Below are positions 1,578 to 31,108 of a stretch of DNA of 47,939 bases, in pieces (within the stretch, counting starts at the first letter, position 1; the number at the start of each line of letters is the position of its first letter). A program made the position numbers and the translations under genes. The notes below the pieces were generated by a model. The model searched no databases. It had not been told where the DNA came from and saw only the letters and a program-made list of their open reading frames with translations. The DNA comes from Candidatus Zhuqueibacterota bacterium (lineage in GTDB: Bacteria > Zhuqueibacterota > Zhuqueibacteria > Oceanimicrobiales > Oceanimicrobiaceae): the NCBI GenBank assembly GCA_029262035.1, contig JAJDAE010000219.1, forward strand, positions 1 to 47,939, written 5' to 3'.

Positions 1578-4418
1578 ATGAAAATTATTAAAATCATTGG
1601 ACTTACAGCGTTGTTGATATTTGGGATATTTCATCCCGATAACATTCTTGCGCAGCGCGGTAAACCGTTTGATATTGAATTCGCCGACCGAATCTCTTTT
1701 TATCTCAATCGTGAGGGCAGGCAATTTTATGCCGACATGGTTGTAAAAGAAAAGCTGCTTTTGCAAACCATACAAAGTATCAATGCCGAATTAAAAAGCC
1801 GGGGAGAAAAAATAGTTCTTGAACAACAAATACCGTTCGAGGCGTTCCTGGATCATTCTGAAAAATTAATTTCTCGCTATAATAAGGAAATAAAACGTCT
1901 TTCCCAGATTGTTGAGCAGTCGTTGAGATTGCAAAGAGTTGTTGAAAGTGATTCGGCTATCAGGGGATTGGTCCGGTTGCGTCAGCAAATTGGTGAAAGT
2001 CTGGATGACCGCACGCTTTTTAAAGAAACCGGTTACCCGCGCAGCATCCTTATTAAATTGCTGAGGTCCTACCATGATGAGCTTGGCAAGCTTACAAGCC
2101 TCTATACGGAATTAAATAAACTCCAACATAGAAGTTCTGAACAGGACTCTTTTTTAAAAAAAATCAAACGGCAGAAAACCTTGATTAGCCGGGCTCTGGA
2201 CTTTAAGCTGCCGCCATCGGTAAAAGATAGCTTACGGGCTGCTTATGCCGTTGAGCTGACAAAATTTGAAGGACTGCTTTCACAAATTGATTTACTGCAG
2301 GCACAAGGCGAAGAAACAGGAATGGCTGCTTTCCCGGCTTTGGATATCCTGCGCCGGAATATTGTGGCTTTTCTCGATAATCAAACAGACATACTCACCC
2401 CTAAAGCCGAAATCGTTAAGCGCAAAACGACGAATGTGTTTGAGCTTTTCAATGAGTGGAAAGTCAAGGAGTACACCGAATATCAGGCCAATTTCACGAA
2501 GTACGAATTTATGAAGCAGCTTTTGCTCATTAATGCAACCGAGGAAGAAACCAACCGCATGTTTGAGCGGGACTTGGAAAGCGCTTTTATTAGTTACGCC
2601 GGCGAAGATTTTGAACTGGCGACGGGTTTGTTCTCTCAGGCGCTTGAATACCGTGGGTTTTCTTCAAAGCTCGATGTGGTTTATTTTTATCGCGGCGAAA
2701 GTTACTTCGCACGAAATCTGTTGGATAAAGCCCAAAAAGATTTTGCCCGTGTGACCGGTAGGTACCCGAAATCAACCTTGTTGATGGACAGTTATTTCAA
2801 GTTGCTGGTGATTGCTGATAAGCAAAACCAAAATATTCGTTTCGCAAGAACTCTGAAAAAAATCAAGCCAAAACTTCAAAATGCAGATATTAATTTGCGA
2901 GAAAAAATATTTTATCTTGCCGGCCACCACTATCTGAAAAATCAGGCTTTTACCGAAGCCGCACGGGTGCTGTCACAAATTGGCAGCAGTTTTTCAAATT
3001 ACCCGGGTACAAGATATTTGCTGGGTTGTGCTCTGGTGAAAACCGGCAATACGGAGACTGCAGCGCAGGTTTTTTCATCCTTAACGGAAAACAGAAATTA
3101 CCCATGGTCAGAAATTTCCGACGCTTATTTTCAAAACAAGGCGATGTTGCAACTCGGCTACCTGGCTTATGAGGGTGAGGACTATAAAAATGCAATCGTC
3201 TACTTTAGCAAAATTTCCCACGGTTTTGTGGATTATGATAAAAGTTTGCTTGCTGCGTCCTGGGCTAACCTTAAACTGGGGAACTCTGAAGTTGCATTAA
3301 GAGAAGCAGAAACATTGTTGAAAGCTTCAATCAGTTCGGCGACGACCTACGAAGCATTGATTCTGGCAGCGCACATCAATCAGGAAATGGAAAAGGAAGA
3401 AGAGGCGCTCACCCAATACCGTTATGTTACGAATTCCTACCGCGTACTTGATGTTACCCAAAAGTATAATGTGGAGCGCAAAGAAATTCTCCATCAGCTA
3501 AACCTTCTTGACCATATTGAGCAGGATGCCATTTCACAAAACAATAAAATTGTTTATAAAGGCATTTCCAAAAGCCGGGAAAAGTTGCTGAATATACTGG
3601 AGAAATTTCAATATCATGGCGATGCCTGGAACCAAAACTATGATGAAATCGCCGGGGAACGCGACCAGATTCTCGACCAGGTGGATGAGCTCAATGGCGT
3701 GATCAAAGTCGCGCACGGGACCGGTAATGCAGAGGCGCTGGAAAAAGCTGATCAGCAGCGTATGCGTTTGCTAAAAGTTCTGGACGAAACGCAAGGTGAC
3801 TTTGTTATGCGCAACCGCAATTATTTTACCGATTATCCGCTGACCACACGCGAGGTTGTGAACGACTACCGAAAAAATATTATGATAAGTTTGCTGGCTG
3901 AAATTAAAACAGAGCGAACATTACTTGCCGATCTTAACCAAAAAGCCGGAAACTTGCAAGATGCCATCAGTTCGGCCAATGTGCACACCAGCACCGAAAT
4001 AGACCTGATTGTGCTCAATGAAAACTTGCAGCGCTTAAATGATAACACCGAGCGTTTCGAAGTATGGCTGGATGAAAATCAACTTCAATCTCTGGACACA
4101 GGATTTGAGCGTTGGGCCGATATTGCTGTTGCCGGAGTCAGCGATTTGACTTATGACAAAATTATGGTCAACGATGAACGCATGGCCTTGCTGGCTCAAA
4201 AAGTACAGCATGTGAACACAATTATCATGCACCGCCAAAACAGGTTGGAGCAAAAACTTAAACACGCCGATCGGCTAATTCGAAAGCTCGAATATGAAAT
4301 TCGAATGAACAGGCTTGACAAGACTCAGGAAAAGCAGGACAGTTATTTTAAAGATCAATATTTTGAGACGGATGATCGGGAAACTGAAACTGAAACATCG
4401 GAGAGTAAGAATGGATAA
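1578..4418 (+). CDS. Exported tetratricopeptide-repeat protein with long coiled coils
   Basis: This 946-aa protein begins with a signal peptide (hydrophobic IIGLTALLIFGIFHP, cleavage near ILAQ-RG), so it should act in the periplasm or at the outer membrane. Residues about 35-330 are highly charged helices, probably coiled coil. Residues about 335-640 contain degenerate TPR units such as AFISYAGEDFELATGLFSQA, DVVYFYRGESYFARN and LQLGYLAYEGEDYKNAI. The last 300 residues return to charged helix with a very acidic tail. TPR proteins of this kind usually serve as scaffolds. It is followed by a second TPR giant and then TolQ-TolR-TolR-AgmX genes on the same strand, so a structural role in an envelope-spanning complex is inferred. 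The ribosome binding site is weak. Confidence 0.85.
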   Translation: MKIIKIIGLTALLIFGIFHPDNILAQRGKPFDIEFADRISFYLNREGRQFYADMVVKEKLLLQTIQSINAELKSRGEKIVLEQQIPFEAFLDHSEKLISRYNKEIKRLSQIVEQSLRLQRVVESDSAIRGLVRLRQQIGESLDDRTLFKETGYPRSILIKLLRSYHDELGKLTSLYTELNKLQHRSSEQDSFLKKIKRQKTLISRALDFKLPPSVKDSLRAAYAVELTKFEGLLSQIDLLQAQGEETGMAAFPALDILRRNIVAFLDNQTDILTPKAEIVKRKTTNVFELFNEWKVKEYTEYQANFTKYEFMKQLLLINATEEETNRMFERDLESAFISYAGEDFELATGLFSQALEYRGFSSKLDVVYFYRGESYFARNLLDKAQKDFARVTGRYPKSTLLMDSYFKLLVIADKQNQNIRFARTLKKIKPKLQNADINLREKIFYLAGHHYLKNQAFTEAARVLSQIGSSFSNYPGTRYLLGCALVKTGNTETAAQVFSSLTENRNYPWSEISDAYFQNKAMLQLGYLAYEGEDYKNAIVYFSKISHGFVDYDKSLLAASWANLKLGNSEVALREAETLLKASISSATTYEALILAAHINQEMEKEEEALTQYRYVTNSYRVLDVTQKYNVERKEILHQLNLLDHIEQDAISQNNKIVYKGISKSREKLLNILEKFQYHGDAWNQNYDEIAGERDQILDQVDELNGVIKVAHGTGNAEALEKADQQRMRLLKVLDETQGDFVMRNRNYFTDYPLTTREVVNDYRKNIMISLLAEIKTERTLLADLNQKAGNLQDAISSANVHTSTEIDLIVLNENLQRLNDNTERFEVWLDENQLQSLDTGFERWADIAVAGVSDLTYDKIMVNDERMALLAQKVQHVNTIIMHRQNRLEQKLKHADRLIRKLEYEIRMNRLDKTQEKQDSYFKDQYFETDDRETETETSESKNG

Positions 4419-17384: not shown

Positions 17385-17418
17385 CCTTGCGAAGGCCTGA
17401 GGCATTCGCAAGGTTTTA
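17385..17418 (+). terminator. Probable intrinsic terminator
   Basis: A perfect 9-bp stem, CCTTGCGAA / TTCGCAAGG with an 11-base loop, is followed directly by TTTT on the plus strand. It lies after the VWA gene and its remnant and abuts the stop codon of the minus-strand SIR2 gene, so it would keep plus-strand transcription from running into that gene. Confidence 0.55.
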
Positions 17419-20400
17419 TTGTCCATGTTCGGTTAGAAAATTACTCATACGCATGTAGTTTGGATCATTTTCGATTTCTGGATCAGCTTCAACCATTCTG
17501 TTGAGTAATTCACGAAATTTTCCCGTGAGAAATTGGTATTCATCAGAGAAGATGATACTTAGTAATTTTAATACCGTTTTGGGTTGTGTTTCTAGTAAGC
17601 TCTTATCAACTATACGATAGATTAAATGTCCAAGGTCTGGAGTTGGTTTTAGTAGAGGCTCGATAAAATCCACGGCTTCTGCAAAAACCTCATCAAGCTC
17701 TATCACAGTTAAAACAAAATTTTGACATGTTTTATCCGAAATGAAATCTGCGGATTTAGGCCATGCCCTCATAATGAATGGTTGCAATCTATTAAGCCAA
17801 TAGGTATCTGCACTCTGTGGATCACTTCTGACAAGATCCGAAAGAAATCTGGAAACAGCTATAAGTCCATCTGCCCCCATCGCATTTAACGCGTAGCGCT
17901 GCTCTTGTAACTTATATAAATCTGGAAACTCGAAACAGATAAGAACAAATAACTGAAAAAGTCTATCCTTCGACTGACCGAGCTGATCTTTATTTTCAAT
18001 CGAATCAAGCAAGTACACCTTAATTGCGATAACTAAGTTGGTTGAAAAACGAGGGTTCCACAAATAGCCTTGCCAAATTAGCGCCGCAGAGTTGGATCTT
18101 TGCCAGTCTAAAAGAGGAATTAGATTTTTTTCAGTCCAGTCTGGATCAACAGCATAAAAATAGTTTAGACGAGAGATGAGAATGATTTTCCCAGCAAGTA
18201 ATTTATTCGATGAGTCTGCGATAAGCCGATTAACACTCAATAATAGATTTCCGTCAGGGATTCTTTCACCATTTTTCAATTTTCTGATACTAAATCTATT
18301 CATTAATGCTTCGGTAATCATGCCAATTGGGTGATTAATAGTATAATTGACAATATTTTTATCTGGTTCATATTTTCGCTCATCTGAAATATTGTCTAAC
18401 AACAAATTGAAAATTGCCCAGAAGTTGTCTTCTTCACTTTCAGATATCGAAGAAATTGTTTTCTCAGTCCACCAGGCGATTGCCCATGATTCCTCTCTAT
18501 AGAGTTCGGAGCTAACTTTTATGAGTAATGGCGCTATTTCTTTCCAGGCTTTTTTATCACAATCAGAAAGTCCGACCAAACCAGCGTGCCAAATCTGTTT
18601 ATTCCAATTTTTGTTGGCAACTAAATATCTTATTACTTGTATTACTTTATTTTTATAGTCTTTGCAAGCTTTGCTAAAAAGGTCAATCCTACCTCGGCTG
18701 TATCGATCATCTTCCTGAGATAAATACTCTACTAAATCTGACAAATCCTTCGAGAAGAGTTTATCTACAGTTGTATCAACGTCATAGCCATACCTCGTTT
18801 CGCCGAACCAGTGGGGGAACTCGTCCCGGTCCCCTTCTCGCAGTTCGAGATCTGGATATTTTGCACTTAGCTGCTCCAACATTTCCATTGCCTTGTCTGG
18901 TAATCCGCCAAATTCGTTCAATTTGGCAAGCATTAGCCAAACTTCGTGGTTAAATAGATAATGCTCCTCCCACTTTATTTCTATTAAGTCATCACGATAC
19001 ATTTTTTGTGGTGGGCCTTGCAATACAATATCTATAATCGAATCAACGAGATATTGTTCTTTTTGAAGTTGAGGCCATAAGACATATAGTAACCTAAAAA
19101 CCTCTCGACGGGTCTGAACAGACCACAACCACCATCCATTGTCTTGCAGTAAATAATTAACTGTTTTTTGATAAATTTTAGGTTTTGCTACAGTGTACGC
19201 ATGGAGTACTAATCTTCGGAATGTAGGGTATTTTAAAGACCGCCACAAATAAGCTATTCCTCTAGCAAGGGGTTTATTGTTTTGCCAGGAAGCCTCCCAC
19301 AAATCTCGACAAATTTCAATCAGAATAGCCCAAGAACTAAAATGATGGTTCTGTGAGTGTGGTGAAATTGAAACCATGTCCCTATAACTTCTGTCATGTT
19401 TTTTCTCGGCAAGGCCAGCAAATTCCCATAATTCAAGTGCTTTATTAAGCGCTTGAGTAGCAGGAAGCAACAAGTTTATAAAGTTATTAGGGAAATCCTT
19501 GCGTTTTTGTAATTCCATATAAACCCAAGGAGATAAACCAATTGCTACTTCTACTTCAAACGGCGCCTTTTTATTGTTTTCTGTACTCTCTTCACCCATG
19601 AAACCAGACAAGTCTATTGATTTTTTAAGGGTGAATGCTGGTTCCAGCAATTTAGAAAACTCTGCTATAATTAATTTGTTGATTCCTGTCTTTAAGCCCT
19701 CCAGATACTCATGTCCACGTCCATCATTTAAGTCCTGCGATCCACAATACACATGATTAGATGTTACAATTCTCCAGAATGTTGAATATGGCTCTTTGAT
19801 TTCATTATTAGAAATTTTGTGTTTAATAAACCATTCAAGACCTGGGTGCAAACAAGAGCCATGATCTATAATCCAATGGATAAGCTTATCATTTTCAAGA
19901 TGATGCAAAAGCCATTGCCAAAGTTCATGTGTTATTTTGTTTGGTCCTACCAAATTCGTTTGATACACTGATGCTGCAACTGGAAAAACTTTATCTTTTG
20001 GGAGAGCAATAGCTAACAAGCCGAATTCATCCAATACCGGTAGCCACTCAACAGGAGCGGGAGGATTGTCAAGTTCTCTAAATATTTTAGCTGGATACCC
20101 AGTGACACTTTCTTGATTTGGCTGAGTTTTTTCACGTAAAACATCAATTAAACGGATTACCGCCGGCTCCTGATCATACGGTGGCAATGGAGCATTCCGT
20201 GCTTCTTTAGCAATAATTCTAGCTTTTGCATTTAAACCATCTCTGACATATTTTCCCCATTCGACAAGTGTTTTATGTAAATTGTTATGGGCATATTCAT
20301 ATAGAATCGGCTCAACTCCTTTTGCGAACCAAGCCCTTTCATTTTCAGTTCTTTTAGATGGTGTTGTGTGTGCAATTAAGTAAGGTTGTTTAAAACCTTC

Positions 20401-21114
20401 GTATCCCCTTTGCTTTTCTGCAGCGACAGCATCTGTTACGTATCGAATGACTGGATCGTTTATGCTATAGCCAATAAAAAGAACTGTAAAATGACTGAAA
20501 AGCTCAGTAATAAATCGACTTGCCCAACGTTCCGTTAAATAGGCCGAACCAAAATCCCCACTTGTAAGAACCATGTGCGAACCATTTGGGTCAGAATCAT
20601 CGATAATGCCATGTAAATGAACGATACTTTCCCATTTATATGGTTTGGGTACCGACAATTTCGGAGCAGCATCAATCATTTGGAAGGTTTCAGTATTCGC
20701 AAGTAAGAATCCACGGTCAAAGTTCGTGGTTACAAGACGGTATTTTTGTGTGCTTATTTGAGATAGTTGTAAAATGGCTTTGTGAGTCTGTAAGTTGGCA
20801 CCACTCGCAATAGTTAATTGCCTAATAATCTCTTTCCGCACTGGGTTAACCTTTAGATTTCTATGTCCGATGATTCTAGCTTCTAACAATCCCAGTGCCC
20901 GATCATAAAGTTTGTTCTTAATGGCTTCAGACTCCAAATCTTTTTTTTCTTCTCCTAATCCTTCGTAAACTTTTTCAACCAAACCTGAAAAACCTGGAAG
21001 GCCAGCAGGGTAAGAAATGCCCGCGCCACAAAAAAATATTAGGGTTTCCGATTCTTGAGCCTCGATTACTTCTAAAGGAATATTCGGGGAGCCCTTTGTT
21101 ATAATAAACTTCAT
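17416..21114 (-). CDS. Large SIR2-domain protein, probable NAD-consuming antiviral effector
   Basis: The ATG at 21114 gives 1232 aa; 25 further in-frame residues upstream look non-coding. The first 320 residues are a SIR2-type domain: FFCGAGIS (NAD-binding loop, residues 27-34), TTNFDRGF (129-136), HLHGIID with the catalytic-type His (166-172), LTSGDFG (183-189) and FIGYSINDP (213-221). The remaining 900 residues are mainly helical, with no transmembrane segment and no other enzyme domain recognised. Bacterial SIR2 proteins with long C-termini (such as the DSR proteins) deplete NAD on phage infection; that function is inferred here. No HerA, Argonaute or Thoeris partner is adjacent. A toxin-antitoxin pair lies immediately upstream on the same strand. 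Confidence 0.88.
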   Translation of the reverse strand: MKFIITKGSPNIPLEVIEAQESETLIFFCGAGISYPAGLPGFSGLVEKVYEGLGEEKKDLESEAIKNKLYDRALGLLEARIIGHRNLKVNPVRKEIIRQLTIASGANLQTHKAILQLSQISTQKYRLVTTNFDRGFLLANTETFQMIDAAPKLSVPKPYKWESIVHLHGIIDDSDPNGSHMVLTSGDFGSAYLTERWASRFITELFSHFTVLFIGYSINDPVIRYVTDAVAAEKQRGYEGFKQPYLIAHTTPSKRTENERAWFAKGVEPILYEYAHNNLHKTLVEWGKYVRDGLNAKARIIAKEARNAPLPPYDQEPAVIRLIDVLREKTQPNQESVTGYPAKIFRELDNPPAPVEWLPVLDEFGLLAIALPKDKVFPVAASVYQTNLVGPNKITHELWQWLLHHLENDKLIHWIIDHGSCLHPGLEWFIKHKISNNEIKEPYSTFWRIVTSNHVYCGSQDLNDGRGHEYLEGLKTGINKLIIAEFSKLLEPAFTLKKSIDLSGFMGEESTENNKKAPFEVEVAIGLSPWVYMELQKRKDFPNNFINLLLPATQALNKALELWEFAGLAEKKHDRSYRDMVSISPHSQNHHFSSWAILIEICRDLWEASWQNNKPLARGIAYLWRSLKYPTFRRLVLHAYTVAKPKIYQKTVNYLLQDNGWWLWSVQTRREVFRLLYVLWPQLQKEQYLVDSIIDIVLQGPPQKMYRDDLIEIKWEEHYLFNHEVWLMLAKLNEFGGLPDKAMEMLEQLSAKYPDLELREGDRDEFPHWFGETRYGYDVDTTVDKLFSKDLSDLVEYLSQEDDRYSRGRIDLFSKACKDYKNKVIQVIRYLVANKNWNKQIWHAGLVGLSDCDKKAWKEIAPLLIKVSSELYREESWAIAWWTEKTISSISESEEDNFWAIFNLLLDNISDERKYEPDKNIVNYTINHPIGMITEALMNRFSIRKLKNGERIPDGNLLLSVNRLIADSSNKLLAGKIILISRLNYFYAVDPDWTEKNLIPLLDWQRSNSAALIWQGYLWNPRFSTNLVIAIKVYLLDSIENKDQLGQSKDRLFQLFVLICFEFPDLYKLQEQRYALNAMGADGLIAVSRFLSDLVRSDPQSADTYWLNRLQPFIMRAWPKSADFISDKTCQNFVLTVIELDEVFAEAVDFIEPLLKPTPDLGHLIYRIVDKSLLETQPKTVLKLLSIIFSDEYQFLTGKFRELLNRMVEADPEIENDPNYMRMSNFLTEHGQ

Positions 21115-21266
21115 AGCTATTATACCATTTCTTATAATCTTCTTTTTTAATGAGGTATAACTTTTATTTTTAATTGCGGAGGAATGCAAGAAAATGAAGG
21201 GAAATATTTGGGAAAAGTCAAAGTAAAAAATCTAAAAACTAGCGCATTTCTGTCCGGATGATATTG

Positions 21267-21569
21267 TCAAATTTTATCCAGTCTTTTGCGCCAATAAAAC
21301 GGTTCTCTTTTTTGGTGGGCAAATGCAACAACCCAAATGAAGTCTGAAAGGTCAAGGTAAAAAATCGAATATGGGAATTTCTTCAATAAATATAATCGTG
21401 TGTCATGATTTTTCTTTGGCCATCTTTCGGGAGCACTTTGAATTTGTACCAGTGCTTTGCTCACTTCTTTCTCAAATTCTAAACCGAGTCCACATCTTTT
21501 TGATTCGTAGTATTCAACAGCCTGCCATAGTTCAATTTCAGCAGAGTGATGAATAATAATCATTTTCAT
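21267..21569 (-). CDS. RelE/ParE-superfamily toxin
   Basis: At 100 aa this has the ParE fold signature: HHSAEIELWQAVEYYESK at the start (two helices), FEKEVSKALVQIQSAPERWP in the middle, and strands with RLYLLKKFPYSIFYLDL and VVAFAHQKREPFYWRKR at the end. ParE toxins block gyrase, RelE toxins cut mRNA at the ribosome; sequence alone does not separate them here, though the RxxxxxxFPYxIxY pattern fits ParE-like members. Its start overlaps the antitoxin stop by 4 bases (ATGA), the normal antitoxin-first order. Confidence 0.9.
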   Translation of the reverse strand: MKMIIIHHSAEIELWQAVEYYESKRCGLGLEFEKEVSKALVQIQSAPERWPKKNHDTRLYLLKKFPYSIFYLDLSDFIWVVAFAHQKREPFYWRKRLDKI

Positions 21570-21796
21570 GAGTACTTAGCTCTAATATCAGCTATCACAT
21601 CTTCCGCAATTCTACCTTTTGCTTTGCCGGTTTTAATTTCTTCCACACGTTCTCGGATTTCTTCATCCCAGGCTTTTTCAATATCAGTATCCATTTGTTC
21701 GTCCAGGCTAATGAGCAACTCATGAGCTAAATCAGCTCTTTCCTCGACTGGCAACGCAATAGCCTGCTCTTTGATGAAATTGAAATTCGGCGACAT
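21566..21796 (-). CDS. Addiction-module antitoxin (unstable antitoxin family)
   Basis: This 76-aa acidic helical protein has the pattern of the PF09720-type antitoxins paired with ParE toxins: IKEQAIALPVEERADLAHELLISLDE, then a variable centre and a C-terminal RVEEIKTGKAKGRI segment containing the conserved motif. It precedes and overlaps the toxin gene. Such antitoxins neutralise the toxin and often repress their own promoter, which should lie in the roughly 130-bp gap upstream (21797-21924). A Shine-Dalgarno-like AAGGAGAAG lies just before the ATG. Confidence 0.88.
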   Translation of the reverse strand: MSPNFNFIKEQAIALPVEERADLAHELLISLDEQMDTDIEKAWDEEIRERVEEIKTGKAKGRIAEDVIADIRAKYS

Positions 21797-21924: not shown

Positions 21925-23397
21925 CTATTGCACATATCTGTCAAAAATAAATGTTGTTCCGAAAGAAAGAATATTTGCTGTTAACCCCGAATCTCTTTCA
22001 TACCGACTAAACTTTAAATTGACATTTTTCAATCCTAGCTTTCCAATGTGGAAGCTGGTAAAAATGTCAGTGTATTTTATGCTAAAACTAAATTGATTTG
22101 CAGTAAATTCGGATAAATCGTAATCTGACGTGTAAAACTCCTGCGTCGAAATATGTTGTTCGTAAGGCGCAAAATGATCAGCTGCTGTTTGGCTATAATA
22201 ACGATAGGACGGGTACAAGGTAAACTTGTCTTTAATTTTTATCGGAATCTCAAAATTTGCGGTATGGGATTGAATACCCCAATCATCAAAATAAAAACGG
22301 TAATATGTTCTCAGAACAAAAAGTTCATTGATGAAATAGTTTAACCTGCCCCCTATGGGTATCTTAAACCGGGTGTCTGGTAAGCGCTCGATGTCATCGG
22401 CCAATTGAAAAATATTCCGACTGGAAGGTGAGGCATATTTAGCTATTCCGGATGGATTTCCTACATAAAAATTAGGTCTGTCCGCAAAATAGACTCTCTG
22501 CATCGGGTTGGCCAGCCAGCCGTTTTGGTAAGCCAAATCAGCGAACAAAGATAACTGCGCGTTCTCGCTTAGAATCTGAGAAAAACTAAGTGAGACCGAA
22601 TAAGAGTTTCTGTTTTTATCATTTAAAAGTTTGTTTTTTAAAGGGCTCCAGGCATTTGCTCCATTTTTATCAATGGTATTGCCATTTTGGTCTAAAACAT
22701 CTATCTCTGCAAAGAGTCCATTACTGAGGCTTTGTCCTTTTTCAATAGTCGCAAAAAACTCAACCGGATATTCCGGACTCCAAAAATCAAAAAAGACATT
22801 CGATTTAATGCTAACTTCAGTATTTTTTTCATTGAAAAGTTTAGCATAACTGCCACCAAGACCGAAAGAGGTGTAGTCGTATTCTGTGGCAAAATTTATA
22901 TTGGCACTCCAAAGCTTGTTCCTGTCGTCGCTTGCGTGGCTGTAGCTTGCATTAATGTTATACCAGACATCTTGTTTTGAGGCGCCGGAAGATTCAACCC
23001 AAGGGCTTGCGGAAGGGTTTGGTTGTCTCGCTCTATTCTCTTCATCGTCATCGTCGTCATCATCATCATCGCTAATTTCAAATGGGTCCAAGTTACTTGA
23101 GGAAGCCGAAGTATAGGCTGAAATACCGGCATCAATGGTTAAAACGTCGTCATCGTTTAAAGGAATAGAGACAACAATAGTCGGGGTTTGATCGGTTAAA
23201 CTTTCTGTGCCAATACCGCCTGTAACAGCAGCGTTGTCACCGTCTTGCGTATAGAAACTGTACAAGAAGTCAATTTCGGCGGTTTCCAGAACACGTTTTT
23301 TGTAAAGCTCTGTTTCGTCATTTTGAGCATAACCCAAAGATGCCAAAAGAAAAGTGAAAATGAGAGCGACTTTTCCATATTTCTGATTTAGTTGCAT
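21925..23397 (-). CDS. DUF3570 outer-membrane beta-barrel protein with a poly-Asp loop
   Basis: The ATG at 23397 gives 490 aa with a signal peptide (VALIFTFLLASLGYAQN); a TTG two codons earlier is less likely. The body is a series of amphipathic beta strands with aromatic ends, and the last residues (LSFGTTFIFDRYVQ) are a typical outer-membrane barrel ending. The N-terminal NAAVTGGIGTESLTDQ and the SSGASKQD segments are features I associate with DUF3570. Residues 110-120 are nine Asp and two Glu in a row in a predicted loop, a likely cation-binding site. The start overlaps the end of the DUF4266 gene, with GGAGGGGG as ribosome binding site inside it. It is the last gene of the thioredoxin-ApbE operon. 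Confidence 0.85.
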   Translation of the reverse strand: MQLNQKYGKVALIFTFLLASLGYAQNDETELYKKRVLETAEIDFLYSFYTQDGDNAAVTGGIGTESLTDQTPTIVVSIPLNDDDVLTIDAGISAYTSASSSNLDPFEISDDDDDDDDDEENRARQPNPSASPWVESSGASKQDVWYNINASYSHASDDRNKLWSANINFATEYDYTSFGLGGSYAKLFNEKNTEVSIKSNVFFDFWSPEYPVEFFATIEKGQSLSNGLFAEIDVLDQNGNTIDKNGANAWSPLKNKLLNDKNRNSYSVSLSFSQILSENAQLSLFADLAYQNGWLANPMQRVYFADRPNFYVGNPSGIAKYASPSSRNIFQLADDIERLPDTRFKIPIGGRLNYFINELFVLRTYYRFYFDDWGIQSHTANFEIPIKIKDKFTLYPSYRYYSQTAADHFAPYEQHISTQEFYTSDYDLSEFTANQFSFSIKYTDIFTSFHIGKLGLKNVNLKFSRYERDSGLTANILSFGTTFIFDRYVQ

Positions 23398-23600
23398 CCA
23401 CAACCCCCTCCGGTTTTGCCACCATTAGCTCCGGCAGAAGACTCGCGGTAAAGCTGAAAAGTAGTTTCAAAGCGATCAACTTTTCTTGAAACTAGTTCCA
23501 TATCCGGATCGTTGATATTTATTTTTTCATACTCTTTAACAGCGACACACGAAGTTAAAGCTATTAGTGCGAAAGGCATCATCAAAAGTTTTTTCATCAT
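23388..23600 (-). CDS. DUF4266 mini-lipoprotein with GGGCGCN tail
   Basis: This 70-aa protein has a lipoprotein signal (PFALIALTSC, lipidated Cys18) and only about 52 mature residues. The end is the striking part: a Gly-rich stretch containing SSAGAN and closing with GGGCGCN, two Cys separated by one Gly at the extreme C-terminus. I associate this tail with the DUF4266 family. A Cys-x-Cys end suggests metal binding, disulfide exchange or covalent modification. Its start overlaps ApbE by 4 bases and its end overlaps DUF3570, so the three are translated together. A substrate relationship with the ApbE transferase or the thioredoxin is possible but not shown. Confidence 0.85.
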   Translation of the reverse strand: MMKKLLMMPFALIALTSCVAVKEYEKININDPDMELVSRKVDRFETTFQLYRESSAGANGGKTGGGCGCN

Positions 23601-24580
23601 TGGGTGTCCATCTCTATGTGATTAGATTTATGAATGTTACCTTGATCATCAATTATAATACATTCTGTTTCTGGTAATTGGTTAATTAAGTTTAACCCTA
23701 CTTTTTCGCCCATAACAAATATCGATGTGGCCAGCGCATCTGCTATTTCTGCTTTTGGAGCAAATACTGTGACGCTAATAATTCCAGAAGTTGGGTGTCC
23801 TGTTTTTGGGTTAATAATGTGCGAATAGCGCTTGCCATTAAAGCTCACATATTTTTCATAATTGCCGGATGTAACGACTGCGCCCTTTTTTATTGGTAAT
23901 AATGCAAAAGCATTTTTTTTGTTTAAGGGATTGGTGATGGCAACTTTCCACTCACTGCCATCGGGTTGTTTTCCCCAGGCACTTATATCGCCTGATGCAT
24001 TGATGATTCCCGCACGAACACCTTGAGAGAATAATATCGCTTTGGCTTTGTCCGCAGCGTATCCCTTGCCTATGGCACCAAAGCCAATTTTCATCTTTTT
24101 TAGCTTTAGAAAGACAGTTTGTTTTTCTTTGTCAAGTATGATATTTCGGTACCCTACTTTGGAGACAGAAGCCTTTATTCTATCCGCTGTCGGTATCTTC
24201 TTCATGCTTCCATCAAACTTCCAAATTCTGTCCATTGAGGCGTAGCTAATATCAAATGCACCTTCAGTAAGTTTTGAAATCATTAAAGAACGGTCAATAA
24301 GATCAAACAATTCTTTGTCGATTTTTACAGGTTTAAGCCCTGCATTTGTATTGATTTTCGATGTTTGAGAATTACCATCCCAGGATGAAATCAACTTTTC
24401 AATTCGCGAGATCTCATTAATGCCGAGGTCGATATAACTTTGGGCTTCGGAGGAATCTTTAGCAATTACAGTTATGCTAAAGTCACTTCCCATTAGTGCA
24501 AAACTACGCTTGTAAATTTGTTGAGCGTGAAGAGCTGTGAAATCTACAAGCGTAACCGCGAACAATAAAAGTTTGAACAT
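23597..24580 (-). CDS. apbE: FAD:protein FMN transferase (ApbE)
   Basis: ApbE attaches FMN covalently to Thr/Ser of exported redox proteins, using FAD and Mg2+. The 327-aa length is normal. A signal peptide (LLLFAVTLVDFTALHAQ) places it in the periplasm. Family motifs are present: FALMGSDFSITV at the start, GFGAIGKGYAADKA in the centre (flavin-binding loop), NASGDISAWG, YSHIINPKTGHP and the C-terminal metal site IADALATSIFVMG. It lies 8 bases after the thioredoxin gene and overlaps DUF4266. No target with a classical SGAT-type flavinylation motif is encoded nearby, so its substrate is unclear; the DUF4266 tail is the local candidate. Confidence 0.95.
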   Translation of the reverse strand: MFKLLLFAVTLVDFTALHAQQIYKRSFALMGSDFSITVIAKDSSEAQSYIDLGINEISRIEKLISSWDGNSQTSKINTNAGLKPVKIDKELFDLIDRSLMISKLTEGAFDISYASMDRIWKFDGSMKKIPTADRIKASVSKVGYRNIILDKEKQTVFLKLKKMKIGFGAIGKGYAADKAKAILFSQGVRAGIINASGDISAWGKQPDGSEWKVAITNPLNKKNAFALLPIKKGAVVTSGNYEKYVSFNGKRYSHIINPKTGHPTSGIISVTVFAPKAEIADALATSIFVMGEKVGLNLINQLPETECIIIDDQGNIHKSNHIEMDTQ

Positions 24581-24588
24581 AAATGTTT

Positions 24589-25023
24589 TTAGAAAGAAGA
24601 CAATAGTTTGATATATTCTGCCGGTTTCATTTTTTTGTAGCCGGTCTTACCTAATACTTTACCGTTTTTATCTAATGCAACCACAAGAGGGAAAAAACCT
24701 TCTTTGTTGTATTTCGCAGCCAGCTTTTTGTTTTTTTCTTGTTGGGCTTTTTTCAACCTGTTGCTTTTTTTTCTTGGAAAATCGGCTTTAAGCATTACAA
24801 AATGGTCTTTGGCGTAAGCTTTAAATTCTTCGGCGCTCCAAACTTCTCTGTCCAACTTTATACATGGTCCACACCAATCCGAACCTTGAAAAACCAGGAT
24901 GATATTTTGGTCTTTTTTTACAGCCATTTTTTTTGCTTCTTCGAAATCTGTAAGCCATTCTCCAGCACTTACAACGTTGAGTGTACCAAAGAATAAGCAG
25001 CCTATGATTATTTTTTTAAACAT
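24589..25023 (-). CDS. Exported thioredoxin-like protein
   Basis: At 144 aa this has a signal peptide (IIIGCLFFGTLNVVSAG) and one thioredoxin domain with the active site SDWCGPC (Cys51, Cys54). The cis-Pro loop is GFFPLVV. A Lys-rich insertion (KKSNRLKKAQQEKNKK) precedes the last strands. It belongs to the thioredoxin_7/DsbD-gamma-like exported group that donates or shuffles electrons in the periplasm. It is the first gene of the four-gene operon with ApbE, DUF4266 and DUF3570, so it may keep the DUF4266 Cys-x-Cys tail reduced; that is inference. Confidence 0.92.
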   Translation of the reverse strand: MFKKIIIGCLFFGTLNVVSAGEWLTDFEEAKKMAVKKDQNIILVFQGSDWCGPCIKLDREVWSAEEFKAYAKDHFVMLKADFPRKKSNRLKKAQQEKNKKLAAKYNKEGFFPLVVALDKNGKVLGKTGYKKMKPAEYIKLLSSF

Positions 25024-25084: not shown

Positions 25085-25645
25085 TCAGGAGTATTTCCAC
25101 TTAATATTGCAGCCCATGCTGGGAACCTGGTTATCGCTAACCGGTGCGCCGGACAGGATGTTATCAAGCGCTGCGCGCATATCGCTGCCGGTCACGGGTC
25201 TGCCACTGTGAGGCCGAGACTCATCTAGTTGGCCACGGTAGACCAATTTCAATTCGCTGTCAAAAATATAAAAATCAGGGGTACAGGCCGCCTGGTAAAC
25301 TCTGGCCACATTCTGGCTTTCATCATACAAATAAGGAAATGGGTAGCCTAACGTTGCCGCAGTTTGTTTCATTTTTTCCGGCGAGTCCTGCGGGTAGTTT
25401 TCGACATCATTTGAACTGATTGCAACAAAGTTAATGCCTCTTGGCTGATAGTCGTTTGCTAATTTAACCAACTCATCATTTACATGTAATACGTACGGGC
25501 AGTGGTTGCAAATAAACATGACAACTGTTGCCTGGTCAGATTTCAGTTCGTTCAATGTTATACTCTTGCCGGAAACTGTGTCCGGTAAATTAAAATCCGG
25601 AGCAACTGTTCCCAGCGCCAACATACTTGAGGGTGTTTCTGACAT
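25085..25645 (-). CDS. Peroxiredoxin/thioredoxin-fold redox protein (AhpC/TSA-like)
   Basis: This 186-aa protein has the AhpC/TSA fold: LGTVAPDFNLPDTVSGKSI at the start, VMFICNHCPYV with Cys46 and Cys49 as the redox pair, NFVAISSNDVENYP, LYDESQNVARVYQAACTPDFYIFD with the cis-Pro, and a CNIKW end. Proteins with this CxHCPYV signature are common, uncharacterised thioredoxin-family members without a signal peptide, so it is probably cytoplasmic. It is 61 bp upstream of the thioredoxin-ApbE operon on the same strand and may share redox function or a transcript. Confidence 0.9.
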   Translation of the reverse strand: MSETPSSMLALGTVAPDFNLPDTVSGKSITLNELKSDQATVVMFICNHCPYVLHVNDELVKLANDYQPRGINFVAISSNDVENYPQDSPEKMKQTAATLGYPFPYLYDESQNVARVYQAACTPDFYIFDSELKLVYRGQLDESRPHSGRPVTGSDMRAALDNILSGAPVSDNQVPSMGCNIKWKYS

Positions 25646-28381: not shown

Positions 28382-31108
28382 ATGAAAAAAAGTATCTCCA
28401 TCTTTGAAAAGCTCCCTCGTTTGATTTATAGGCACTATATCAAAATAATTACTCTTTCTGTTTTGATGACTATTCTTTCGGCATTTTCGGTCAAGGATCT
28501 TGGACTGAAGACCAACATAGCCGAGCTGTTACCCAAGACTTATAAAAGTGTTTCCGAGCTAGAAAAAATCAAACAAAAAGTGGGTGGCGTTGGCAGCCTG
28601 ATTGTCGCGGTAGAAGGCCAGGATTTTGAAAAGCTCAAACAAGCCGCAACAATTTTGGCTGAAAATCTATCTGAAGGTTCATTGGTAAAAAATGTTGAAT
28701 ATCAAAAAGATAGAAAGTTTTTGAAAGACAATGCGCTAATTTTTGCTGACCTGCACAAACTCAATGAGCTGAAAGATATTGTCCACGAAAAAATCAACAC
28801 AGAAAAATTAAAAGTCAGTGGCATGTATTTGGATCTCTTCGATGATGGTAATGAGGAAGATGATCTTGAAAGAATGCGCAAACAGTATTCTAAAGGCAGT
28901 GAAAATGCGTTTTACACAAATAAAGATAAAACCATTATCGCAATGCAGGTTTATGCTTACGGAACTGCCAGCGCGCTAAAATTTGTTCGTAAGCTTTTTG
29001 CCGAAGTGGAAGGCATAGTTGAGGCTTCTGATCTTCAAAGCATTGATCCCGGTATCGAGGTGCTTTATAGCGGCAGTTACAAAAGCAGCATCGATGAAAA
29101 CGATACAGTTATTTCAGATCTGTACTTAAATTTATATACCACGGTTCCGGCGATTATTCTTTTTGTGTCATTCTATTTTATGCAGCCGGGCGGTTTTATT
29201 TTTATTTTCATTCCTTTGATCATGAGTATTTCCTGGACTTTTGGATTGACAGAAGTTATCTATGGTGACTTGAATACCATTACGGCATTTCTATTTATTA
29301 TTCTTTTGGGAATGGGAATTGATTACGGCATTCATTCTTTTGCAAGATATTTAGAATCGAGACGTGGTGGAGATAGTATTCAGGATGCGATTCATAAAAC
29401 GGTTGCAAAGACCGGACGGGGTATTTTTACCAGCGCGATAACCACCTCCGTTGCCTTTTTTACTCTCATGTTCAACGATTTTAAAGGATTCAGCCAATTT
29501 GGGTTTATTTGTGGTTTTGGCATTATCTCTGCCTACGTTGCCATGACCATTGTTTTCCCTGCTTTTCTCATTGTTTTCGATAAAATCGGCTGGATTCGCT
29601 CTGCGCCCAAGACTGAAAAAGTCGTCGTTAAGAGCAAACGAAAGCTGCCATTTTCGGGCACAATTATCGCATTGGCTACAGCTTTTACAGTAATTGGGAT
29701 AACAGCGGCCGTTATTTCTTTTACTTCGGAAAAAGGCATTACTTTTGAGTACGACTTCAAGGAACTGCGCTCTAATTTGCCAAAATCTAAGGAGATGGCT
29801 AAAAAACTATCCGGTATTTTTGCCAAGGAGGCTTCTTCGCCGGCGATTATTCTTTCAGACAGCAAAGAAAGTTCTAAAGAAATTGTGCAATATATTGATA
29901 AAATTATACAAAAGGGTCGGCCCGTATTAAAACTCATTGATGATTTGGAAATCTTGCATGAGGGCATAACGGCTGCGCTTGAGGATTCCTCTGAATCAAA
30001 GTTGCGTAAAAAGCTTCGGGCGGTACAGCGTGATATCAGAAAAATCCATGCGCAGGACTCTTTATTGGCTGCCCGTTCCAAAGTCTATGAATCAGACCAG
30101 TCCGTAAATGAATATCTTGTGAGTTTAAACGATGACATTGCAGCGTTTAGGGAAAATACGAATGGTATTGATTTCCGGCGAGAGCTTGAAATTGCCAAGG
30201 AGTTGGTTTTTTCTACTTACACCAATATTGACAAGCCTACGGTTAAATCTGTTATAACGCTTCATACTGTGGTGCCAGATAGCCAGAGTTATAAAATGTC
30301 AGTTTTAACAGAAATTGAGAATCTGATAGACTCGGATGAAGCTGAGTTAGTGAAGGGCAAGGACAAAGAAAATCTTGATGAGTTGAAAGACTTACTCGCA
30401 AAACGACGGGAGATCGCCCTGGAAGATTTGCCTGAAAAAATGGTACAGCGTTTTATTGGAAAAGATGGCAGCCTCGGTGAGTTTGTTTTTATTATCCCGG
30501 GTATAAAATTGAGAGATGGCCGGGAAGCCATGCGTTTCTCGGATGATATCCATAAAATAGAATTGGAGTCCGGCAAAACCTTTTATGCCTCAAGTCCGAA
30601 TATAGTAATCGCCGACATGTTGCGAGTCCTTCTGGCTGAAAGTAAAATCGCTGTTTGTCTTGCCATGCTGGCAGTTTTTGCTCTGGTTTTAATCGATGTA
30701 AGATCGCTGAGGGCGACACTTTTAATTTTAACTCCACTGGTTACAGCATTGCTCTGGCTTGGCGGAATTATGTATTTTACAGGCATTAAATTCAACTTCT
30801 TTAACATGGTGGTTTTGCCTTCAATTATCGGAATTGGCATTGATAATGGCGTTCATATTTATCATCGATACAAAGAGGAAGGTTCAGGCTCGGTCTGGTT
30901 TGTTATAAAAAGTACGGGAATGCCGGTTATCGCTAGTGTTGTAACCACCATGCTCGGATTTTTGGGTTTGGTTTTTGCCCAACATAACGGGCTAAATTCA
31001 ATTGGCAATTTGGCAGTAATCGGTCTGAGCATGACGTTGCTCGCTGCAATAACGTTGCTGCCTGCTATTTTTCAAAAATTGGAAAGGCAAAAAGAGGCAA
31101 CCAAATAA
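28382..31108 (+). CDS. RND/MMPL-family exporter (HpnN-like)
   Basis: This 908-aa inner-membrane protein has two homologous halves, each with one N-terminal helix, a large periplasmic domain and five more helices. The first half shows LLGMGIDYGIHSFARYLE and the second IIGIGIDNGVHIYHRYKE, the GxGxDxxIH-type helix-4 motif typical of MMPL and hopanoid-exporter relatives, with the Asp likely in proton coupling. Members move lipids or glycolipids out of the inner membrane. Placed between glycosyltransferases and a flippase, it probably exports the lipid-linked product of the operon. No MFP or TolC-type gene accompanies it, so it would act alone or with unlinked partners. Confidence 0.9.
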   Translation: MKKSISIFEKLPRLIYRHYIKIITLSVLMTILSAFSVKDLGLKTNIAELLPKTYKSVSELEKIKQKVGGVGSLIVAVEGQDFEKLKQAATILAENLSEGSLVKNVEYQKDRKFLKDNALIFADLHKLNELKDIVHEKINTEKLKVSGMYLDLFDDGNEEDDLERMRKQYSKGSENAFYTNKDKTIIAMQVYAYGTASALKFVRKLFAEVEGIVEASDLQSIDPGIEVLYSGSYKSSIDENDTVISDLYLNLYTTVPAIILFVSFYFMQPGGFIFIFIPLIMSISWTFGLTEVIYGDLNTITAFLFIILLGMGIDYGIHSFARYLESRRGGDSIQDAIHKTVAKTGRGIFTSAITTSVAFFTLMFNDFKGFSQFGFICGFGIISAYVAMTIVFPAFLIVFDKIGWIRSAPKTEKVVVKSKRKLPFSGTIIALATAFTVIGITAAVISFTSEKGITFEYDFKELRSNLPKSKEMAKKLSGIFAKEASSPAIILSDSKESSKEIVQYIDKIIQKGRPVLKLIDDLEILHEGITAALEDSSESKLRKKLRAVQRDIRKIHAQDSLLAARSKVYESDQSVNEYLVSLNDDIAAFRENTNGIDFRRELEIAKELVFSTYTNIDKPTVKSVITLHTVVPDSQSYKMSVLTEIENLIDSDEAELVKGKDKENLDELKDLLAKRREIALEDLPEKMVQRFIGKDGSLGEFVFIIPGIKLRDGREAMRFSDDIHKIELESGKTFYASSPNIVIADMLRVLLAESKIAVCLAMLAVFALVLIDVRSLRATLLILTPLVTALLWLGGIMYFTGIKFNFFNMVVLPSIIGIGIDNGVHIYHRYKEEGSGSVWFVIKSTGMPVIASVVTTMLGFLGLVFAQHNGLNSIGNLAVIGLSMTLLAAITLLPAIFQKLERQKEATK

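Follow-up and report, generated by a model that had tools for sequence, protein, structure and literature searches.

Gene clusters that combine ApbE, a flavin adenine dinucleotide (FAD):protein flavin mononucleotide (FMN) transferase, with DUF3570, Thioredoxin_7 (Trx_7) and DUF4266 were described as 'DsbD systems' by Meheust et al. in 2021 (eLife, PMC8238504). That study counted 316 four-family clusters that lack DsbD; of the 285 flavinylation clusters in which DsbD is present, 227 contained DUF3570. It also found 'orphan' apbE genes beside DUF3570. In Chlorobium luteolum, the cognate ApbE was shown to flavinylate DUF3570 at two [S/T]GA[S/T] sites (PMC8238504). Here, we analyzed a stretch of 47,939 nucleotides, termed the window, from a Candidatus Zhuqueibacterota bacterium (assembly GCA_029262035.1, contig JAJDAE010000219.1), in which positions 21925–25023 carry the same four genes on the minus strand. 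The window set is a member of the kind of cluster described in 2021: all four families are tightly linked, and its DUF4266 has the C-terminal CXC. DsbD, which is optional in the published clusters, is absent from the window cluster. Unlike those clusters, the window copy lies outside Bacteroidota and one of its flavin sites is TSAS instead of [S/T]GA[S/T]. A first-pass annotation of this DNA had called the pathway uncharacterised, which goes too far for the gene set and is fair for its physiological role; our search found no literature after 2021 on DUF3570 or DUF4266, and one 2024 paper and one 2025 review make no mention of DUF3570 by name. We consider it reasonably probable that the set is a laterally acquired DUF3570/ApbE flavinylation module, in which electrons would pass from DsbD through Trx_7 and DUF4266 to FMN-bearing DUF3570 and then to metal ions.

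The genes are arranged on the minus strand in the order Trx_7, ApbE, DUF4266, and DUF3570. The first encodes a Thioredoxin_7 protein of 144 residues (24589–25023, Pfam 3.3e-15) with a signal peptide and a WCGPC active site (CGPC codons at 24862–24873), and its nearest solved relative was 2ju5, a DsbH-like disulfide isomerase/reductase. The second encodes an ApbE of 327 residues with a signal peptide (23597–24580, PF02424, 2.6e-84), which could be aligned over its length to the solved ApbE enzymes 7esa and 1vrm. DUF4266 is a mini-lipoprotein of 70 residues and a presumed dithiol carrier (23388–23600, PF14086, 9.3e-19); it has the lipobox LTSC (Cys18 codon at 23547–23549) and ends in GGGCGCN (CGC codons at 23394–23402). 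DUF3570, a predicted outer-membrane β-barrel and ApbE substrate (PF12094, 4.4e-40), spans 21925–23397 when started at the ATG at 23397 (490 residues), and the alternative TTG at 23403 gives 492 residues and a 16-base overlap with DUF4266. All four Pfam assignments exceeded the curated cut-offs, and the signal peptides of Trx_7, ApbE, and DUF3570 and the lipobox of DUF4266 were called by inspection of the sequence. The close packing reported in the first pass was confirmed, with an 8-base gap between Trx_7 and ApbE, a 4-base overlap between ApbE and DUF4266, and a 10-base overlap between DUF4266 and DUF3570. The DUF3570 gene has a likely ribosome-binding site, GGAGGGGG (23404–23411), that consists of glycine codons of the DUF4266 tail, and therefore the two genes are physically interlocked. 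A promoter scan gave no more candidates than shuffled sequence, and a terminator scan was near chance. An upstream AhpC/TSA-like gene (25085–25645) was considered as a fifth member and rejected, as it had no counterpart at this position in Bacteroidota relatives and no evident signal peptide.

The residue that accepts FMN is the last one of the motif D-x-x-[S/T]-G-A-[S/T] (2025 review, PMC12052999). Two predicted flavin sites were identified in the window DUF3570 on the minus strand (residues numbered from the TTG). Site 2, SGAS (residues 139–142, 22978–22989), is the canonical [S/T]GA[S/T] with Ser142 as the predicted acceptor, and site 1, TSAS (residues 98–101, 23101–23112), is a Gly-to-Ser variant of the motif with Ser101 as the predicted acceptor. 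Between them lies a hypervariable acidic loop with nine consecutive Asp residues (22990–23100, minus strand; model loop 76–118). Conservation was examined in 28 relatives with the same gene order (type A), the window protein included. S99-A100-S101 of site 1 was invariant (28/28) and Gly was found there in none of the 28; at site 2, Ser142 was kept in 27 of the 28, with Gly in 13 and Ser in 14 at position 140. Residues 102–138 were nearly unconserved, the commonest residue averaging 14%. The conserved sites thus border a loop that is hypervariable in between, and relatives carry such motifs in the same loop. As judged from these patterns, Ser142 would be the safer call for a flavin acceptor and Ser101 a possible second site.

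The first-pass annotation had stated that no classical ApbE target is encoded and had proposed DUF4266 as the modified carrier. The FMN_bind domain (PF04205) is absent from the window cluster. The flavinylation of a DUF3570 homologue (PMC8238504) together with SGAS and TSAS in the window protein points to DUF3570 as the target, and the premise of a missing target is not supported. A DUF4266 modified by ApbE and ferrying flavin or electrons through the barrel would be consistent with its tight linkage to ApbE and DUF3570 and with its Ser/Gly-rich tail. On the other hand, [S/T]GA[S/T] occurred in just one of 57 DUF4266 homologues, the conserved sites lie on DUF3570, and flavinylation was demonstrated for DUF3570 (PMC8238504). 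DUF4266 is thus an unlikely ApbE target, and we rejected it as a flavin carrier, a role that we consider very improbable, because 56 of the 57 homologues lack the motif. The lipobox was present in 56/57 of these proteins and the CxC end in 57/57, the latter count not being independent since the proteins had partly been collected by this end. WCxPC was kept in every Trx_7 compared.

At other loci (L095, L097, L100, L102–L104, and L107–L112), DUF3570 was found beside its own ApbE, and each of its two flavin sites reads [S/T]SAS, with no Gly. These proteins offer a naturally occurring test of the motif that ApbE requires.

The AlphaFold model of the window DUF3570 was a 16-strand barrel (predicted local distance difference test score, pLDDT, 63.7; predicted template modelling score, pTM, 0.61), which matched solved porins and other outer-membrane barrels with Z of about 17–21. 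We assign to DUF3570, with moderate confidence, a signal peptide and a transmembrane β-barrel fold. PMC8238504 does not call DUF3570 a barrel (no match for 'barrel' or 'porin'), and sequence search gave no credible solved relative of DUF3570 or DUF4266. By strand count, the model has all its long loops on the face opposite to the termini, and both flavin sites are on one long loop between strands 3 and 4. Given the usual orientation of such barrels, we hypothesize that this loop may face outward or fold into the lumen. If this is right, periplasmic ApbE must act before insertion of the barrel. The published DUF3570 homologue was flavinylated even though most of it went into the insoluble pellet (PMC8238504), which fits the action of ApbE on the unfolded chain.

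Gene neighbours were counted in 247 genomes from the phylum to which L025, a locus of a Flavobacteriaceae metagenome-assembled genome, belongs. DUF3570 was present in 71 of the genomes and DUF4266 in 69, all within those 71 (Fisher p about 1e-59, a value inflated by kinship), and 81 of the 84 DUF4266 loci had DUF3570 within 1 kb. ApbE lay within 10 kb of DUF4266 in 61/69 genomes and of DUF3570 in 65/71, so that neither family is unlinked from ApbE in most of these Bacteroidota-type genomes. The type A order was found in about 22 of the 40 fetched Bacteroidota-type loci, plus L025. Because it recurs in relatives and DUF4266 and DUF3570 co-occur, the four-gene order is beyond chance. The first-pass view that the four linked genes form an exported redox module is supported. 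The alternative order among the fetched loci was TlpA-DUF4266-DUF3570-ApbE, often with DsbD. In L127 (5257–13534), four DUF3570 genes and two DUF4266 genes form an array; multiple copies of DUF3570 were also seen in other sampled genomes, and a single frame of 832 residues holds two.

The host assembly is 5.3 Mb, and DUF4266 was found in 17 of 82 genomes of the host phylum. The sets native to this phylum differed from that of the window and were of two types. Type B comprises a hydrazine synthase alpha-related haem protein, TlpA, DUF4266 with a CACN end, DUF3570 with a single TGAS site, and an NHL protein with a type IX secretion system (T9SS) tail, and it has no ApbE. The second DUF4266-DUF3570 set of the host is of this type and without ApbE (L028, contig C126, 6908–13436); its layout recurs in relatives within the phylum, and a similar one was seen in L115. 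Type C (L030, L032, L034, and L038–L041) comprises a small cytochrome (CXXCH protein), TlpA, DUF4266, DUF3570, a NusG_II protein (L032), and in several cases ApbE (L032, L034, L039, and L041). A DUF2271 protein, from another ApbE substrate family, adjoins the set in L032. The window set was the sole type A among the host-phylum loci read.

In phylogenetic trees, the window DUF3570 and ApbE were placed within Bacteroidota type-A clades (a 29-row clade with 100/100 and an 11-row clade with 95/94 support). Two flanking genes of the window (1578–4418 and 28382–31108) were much closer to the family of the host than to Bacteroidota, and an assembly or binning artefact behind the odd phylogeny was rejected on this basis. 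The GC content was 38.5% in the four-gene set versus 42.6% in the outer parts of the window. As the set nests among Bacteroidota sets while its flanks belong to the host lineage, lateral transfer of the set from Bacteroidota is apparently the simplest account of these sequences. A plasmid search yielded just distant DUF3570 proteins of Hymenobacter and Vibrio. The DsbD genes of the host are on contigs C312 and C358, unlinked to the window set. Its second ApbE is on C245 beside an FMN_bind gene, a locus that looks like an NQR operon, and FMN_bind proteins are encoded on C245 and C36.

Adjoining the redox operon, a SIR2 protein of 1257 residues (17416–21189) matched the Dsr1 anti-phage defence family (PADLOC 6e-223), and the pair at 21267–21796 was ParE-like and Unstab_antitox. 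These genes suggest a variable island of lower GC.

The neighbours of related sets included genes for metal handling. VIT1, an iron/manganese transporter noted in 25 clusters in PMC8238504, was within 10 kb of the set in 10 of 25 genomes and at 10 of 22 VIT1 loci, where about 0.1 was expected by chance; these genomes are related and were estimated to represent roughly five lineages. CusA/CzcA-type RND pumps and heavy-metal-type two-component genes each occurred at as many as nine loci. In L026 (1992–7073), L088, L089, L090, and L096, the type-A set is followed by genes for a response regulator, a histidine kinase, and a CusA/CzcA-type RND pump. This context, as well as a CxC with glycines that resembles metal-binding thiols and the poly-Asp loop, would suit a DUF4266 that acts as a metal carrier or chaperone, with Trx_7 keeping its thiols reduced, the barrel exporting or importing metal, and the flavin sensing or adjusting redox. 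Such a carrier leaves the strongly conserved flavin sites unexplained, however, and VIT1 and pump genes are missing beside most sets, the window set included. Hence, we regard it as improbable.

Also near the set in relatives were Rieske proteins at seven loci and a cytochrome b561 at four, and DsbD adjoins the cluster in some relatives. The sequence does not fix the direction of electron flow, and PMC8238504 leaves it open in principle. In the reverse direction, a flavinylated barrel would take up electrons from outside, for example from Fe(II) or a reduced donor, and pass them inward via thiols or cytochromes; some relatives indeed stand beside multihaem or monohaem c-type cytochromes. Nevertheless, other evidence argues against inward flow: relatives are linked to DsbD, which exports reductant, Trx_7 resembles the disulfide reductase DsbH, and the window set has no cytochrome, the CXXCH haem motif being absent from it. 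We therefore consider reverse flow unlikely. Separately, DUF3570 adjoins multihaem c-type cytochromes in L119 (940–4003) and L127 (285–3349), with eight CXXCH motifs each, and in L106 (3–5133), with 11 and four, suggesting that some DUF3570 barrels work with cytochromes.

An outward flow of reducing power ending on metals is the best reading because of the metal context, the DsbD linkage, and the DsbH-like thioredoxin. In the proposed model, periplasmic ApbE would take FMN from FAD and attach it to Ser142 of DUF3570, and possibly also to Ser101, probably before the barrel folds. Cytosolic reducing power would reach the WCGPC of periplasmic Trx_7 via the unlinked DsbD, and would then be handed over at the outer membrane to the lipoprotein DUF4266, through its CxC thiols, and on to the barrel-bound FMN. 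The FMN would convert the two-electron thiol reduction into one-electron steps, and the flavins on the loop between strands 3 and 4 may, at the outer membrane, pass electrons to metal ions, namely Fe(III) and perhaps Cu(II). The module is thus doubtfully 'self-contained', as the first pass had put it, since it needs an inner-membrane electron donor, DsbD, that is encoded elsewhere in the genome.

Several observations weigh against this model. The usual upstream Asp is missing from both flavin sites, and at site 1 the ApbE motif has also lost its Gly. In one model protein, Gly-to-Ala approximately halved flavinylation (Gly-to-Ser is not reported there), and loss of the Asp had a minor effect (PMC12052999). 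The AlphaFold alignment consisted of four sequences, with a pLDDT of about 35 in the flavin loop, and a second model, of the distant homologue L027, had a pLDDT of 51.8 and was apparently one strand short; it did not confirm the sidedness of the loop. In addition, many related sets have no linked ApbE (type B), and no VIT1, metal pump, or DsbD is encoded within the window.

The gene set is widespread in Bacteroidota-type genomes. The window copy extends it laterally to a further phylum, and its two flavin sites offer a test of how strictly ApbE depends on its motif. New here are the lateral copy, the host's second, ApbE-less set beside a haem protein, the barrel model with both flavin sites on one loop, and the VIT1 and heavy-metal efflux context. 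If the reading of the barrel and its loop is true, DUF3570 would serve as an outer-membrane conduit with covalently bound flavin and be the equivalent, without haem, of porin-cytochrome complexes; at the outer membrane, it would couple the redox power of thiols to the reduction of metals. The full form of such a conduit, namely a barrel of 16 strands whose two covalently bound FMNs share one loop, either extracellular or filling the lumen, a relay of Trx and CxC-lipoprotein, and metal reduction at the surface, together with a Bacteroidota branch of ApbE that accepts [S/T]SAS, is put forward tentatively.

Compared with known systems, the window set shares with the FMN_bind systems (NQR/RNF and related) the addition of FMN by ApbE to an exported redox protein, whereas its substrate is a predicted outer-membrane barrel with no FMN_bind domain. 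With the DsbD/DsbH periplasmic reductase pathways it shares a Trx_7 that is closest to DsbH and DsbD as the likely donor; unlike in those pathways, electrons would end up on a flavinylated barrel and not on protein disulfides. If our reading is right, the set also resembles the porin-cytochrome conduits of the MtrCAB type in having a barrel with a redox cofactor that moves electrons across the outer membrane. It is not a member of that group: the cofactor would be flavin, the presumed donor is a thiol relay, and there is no haem motif.

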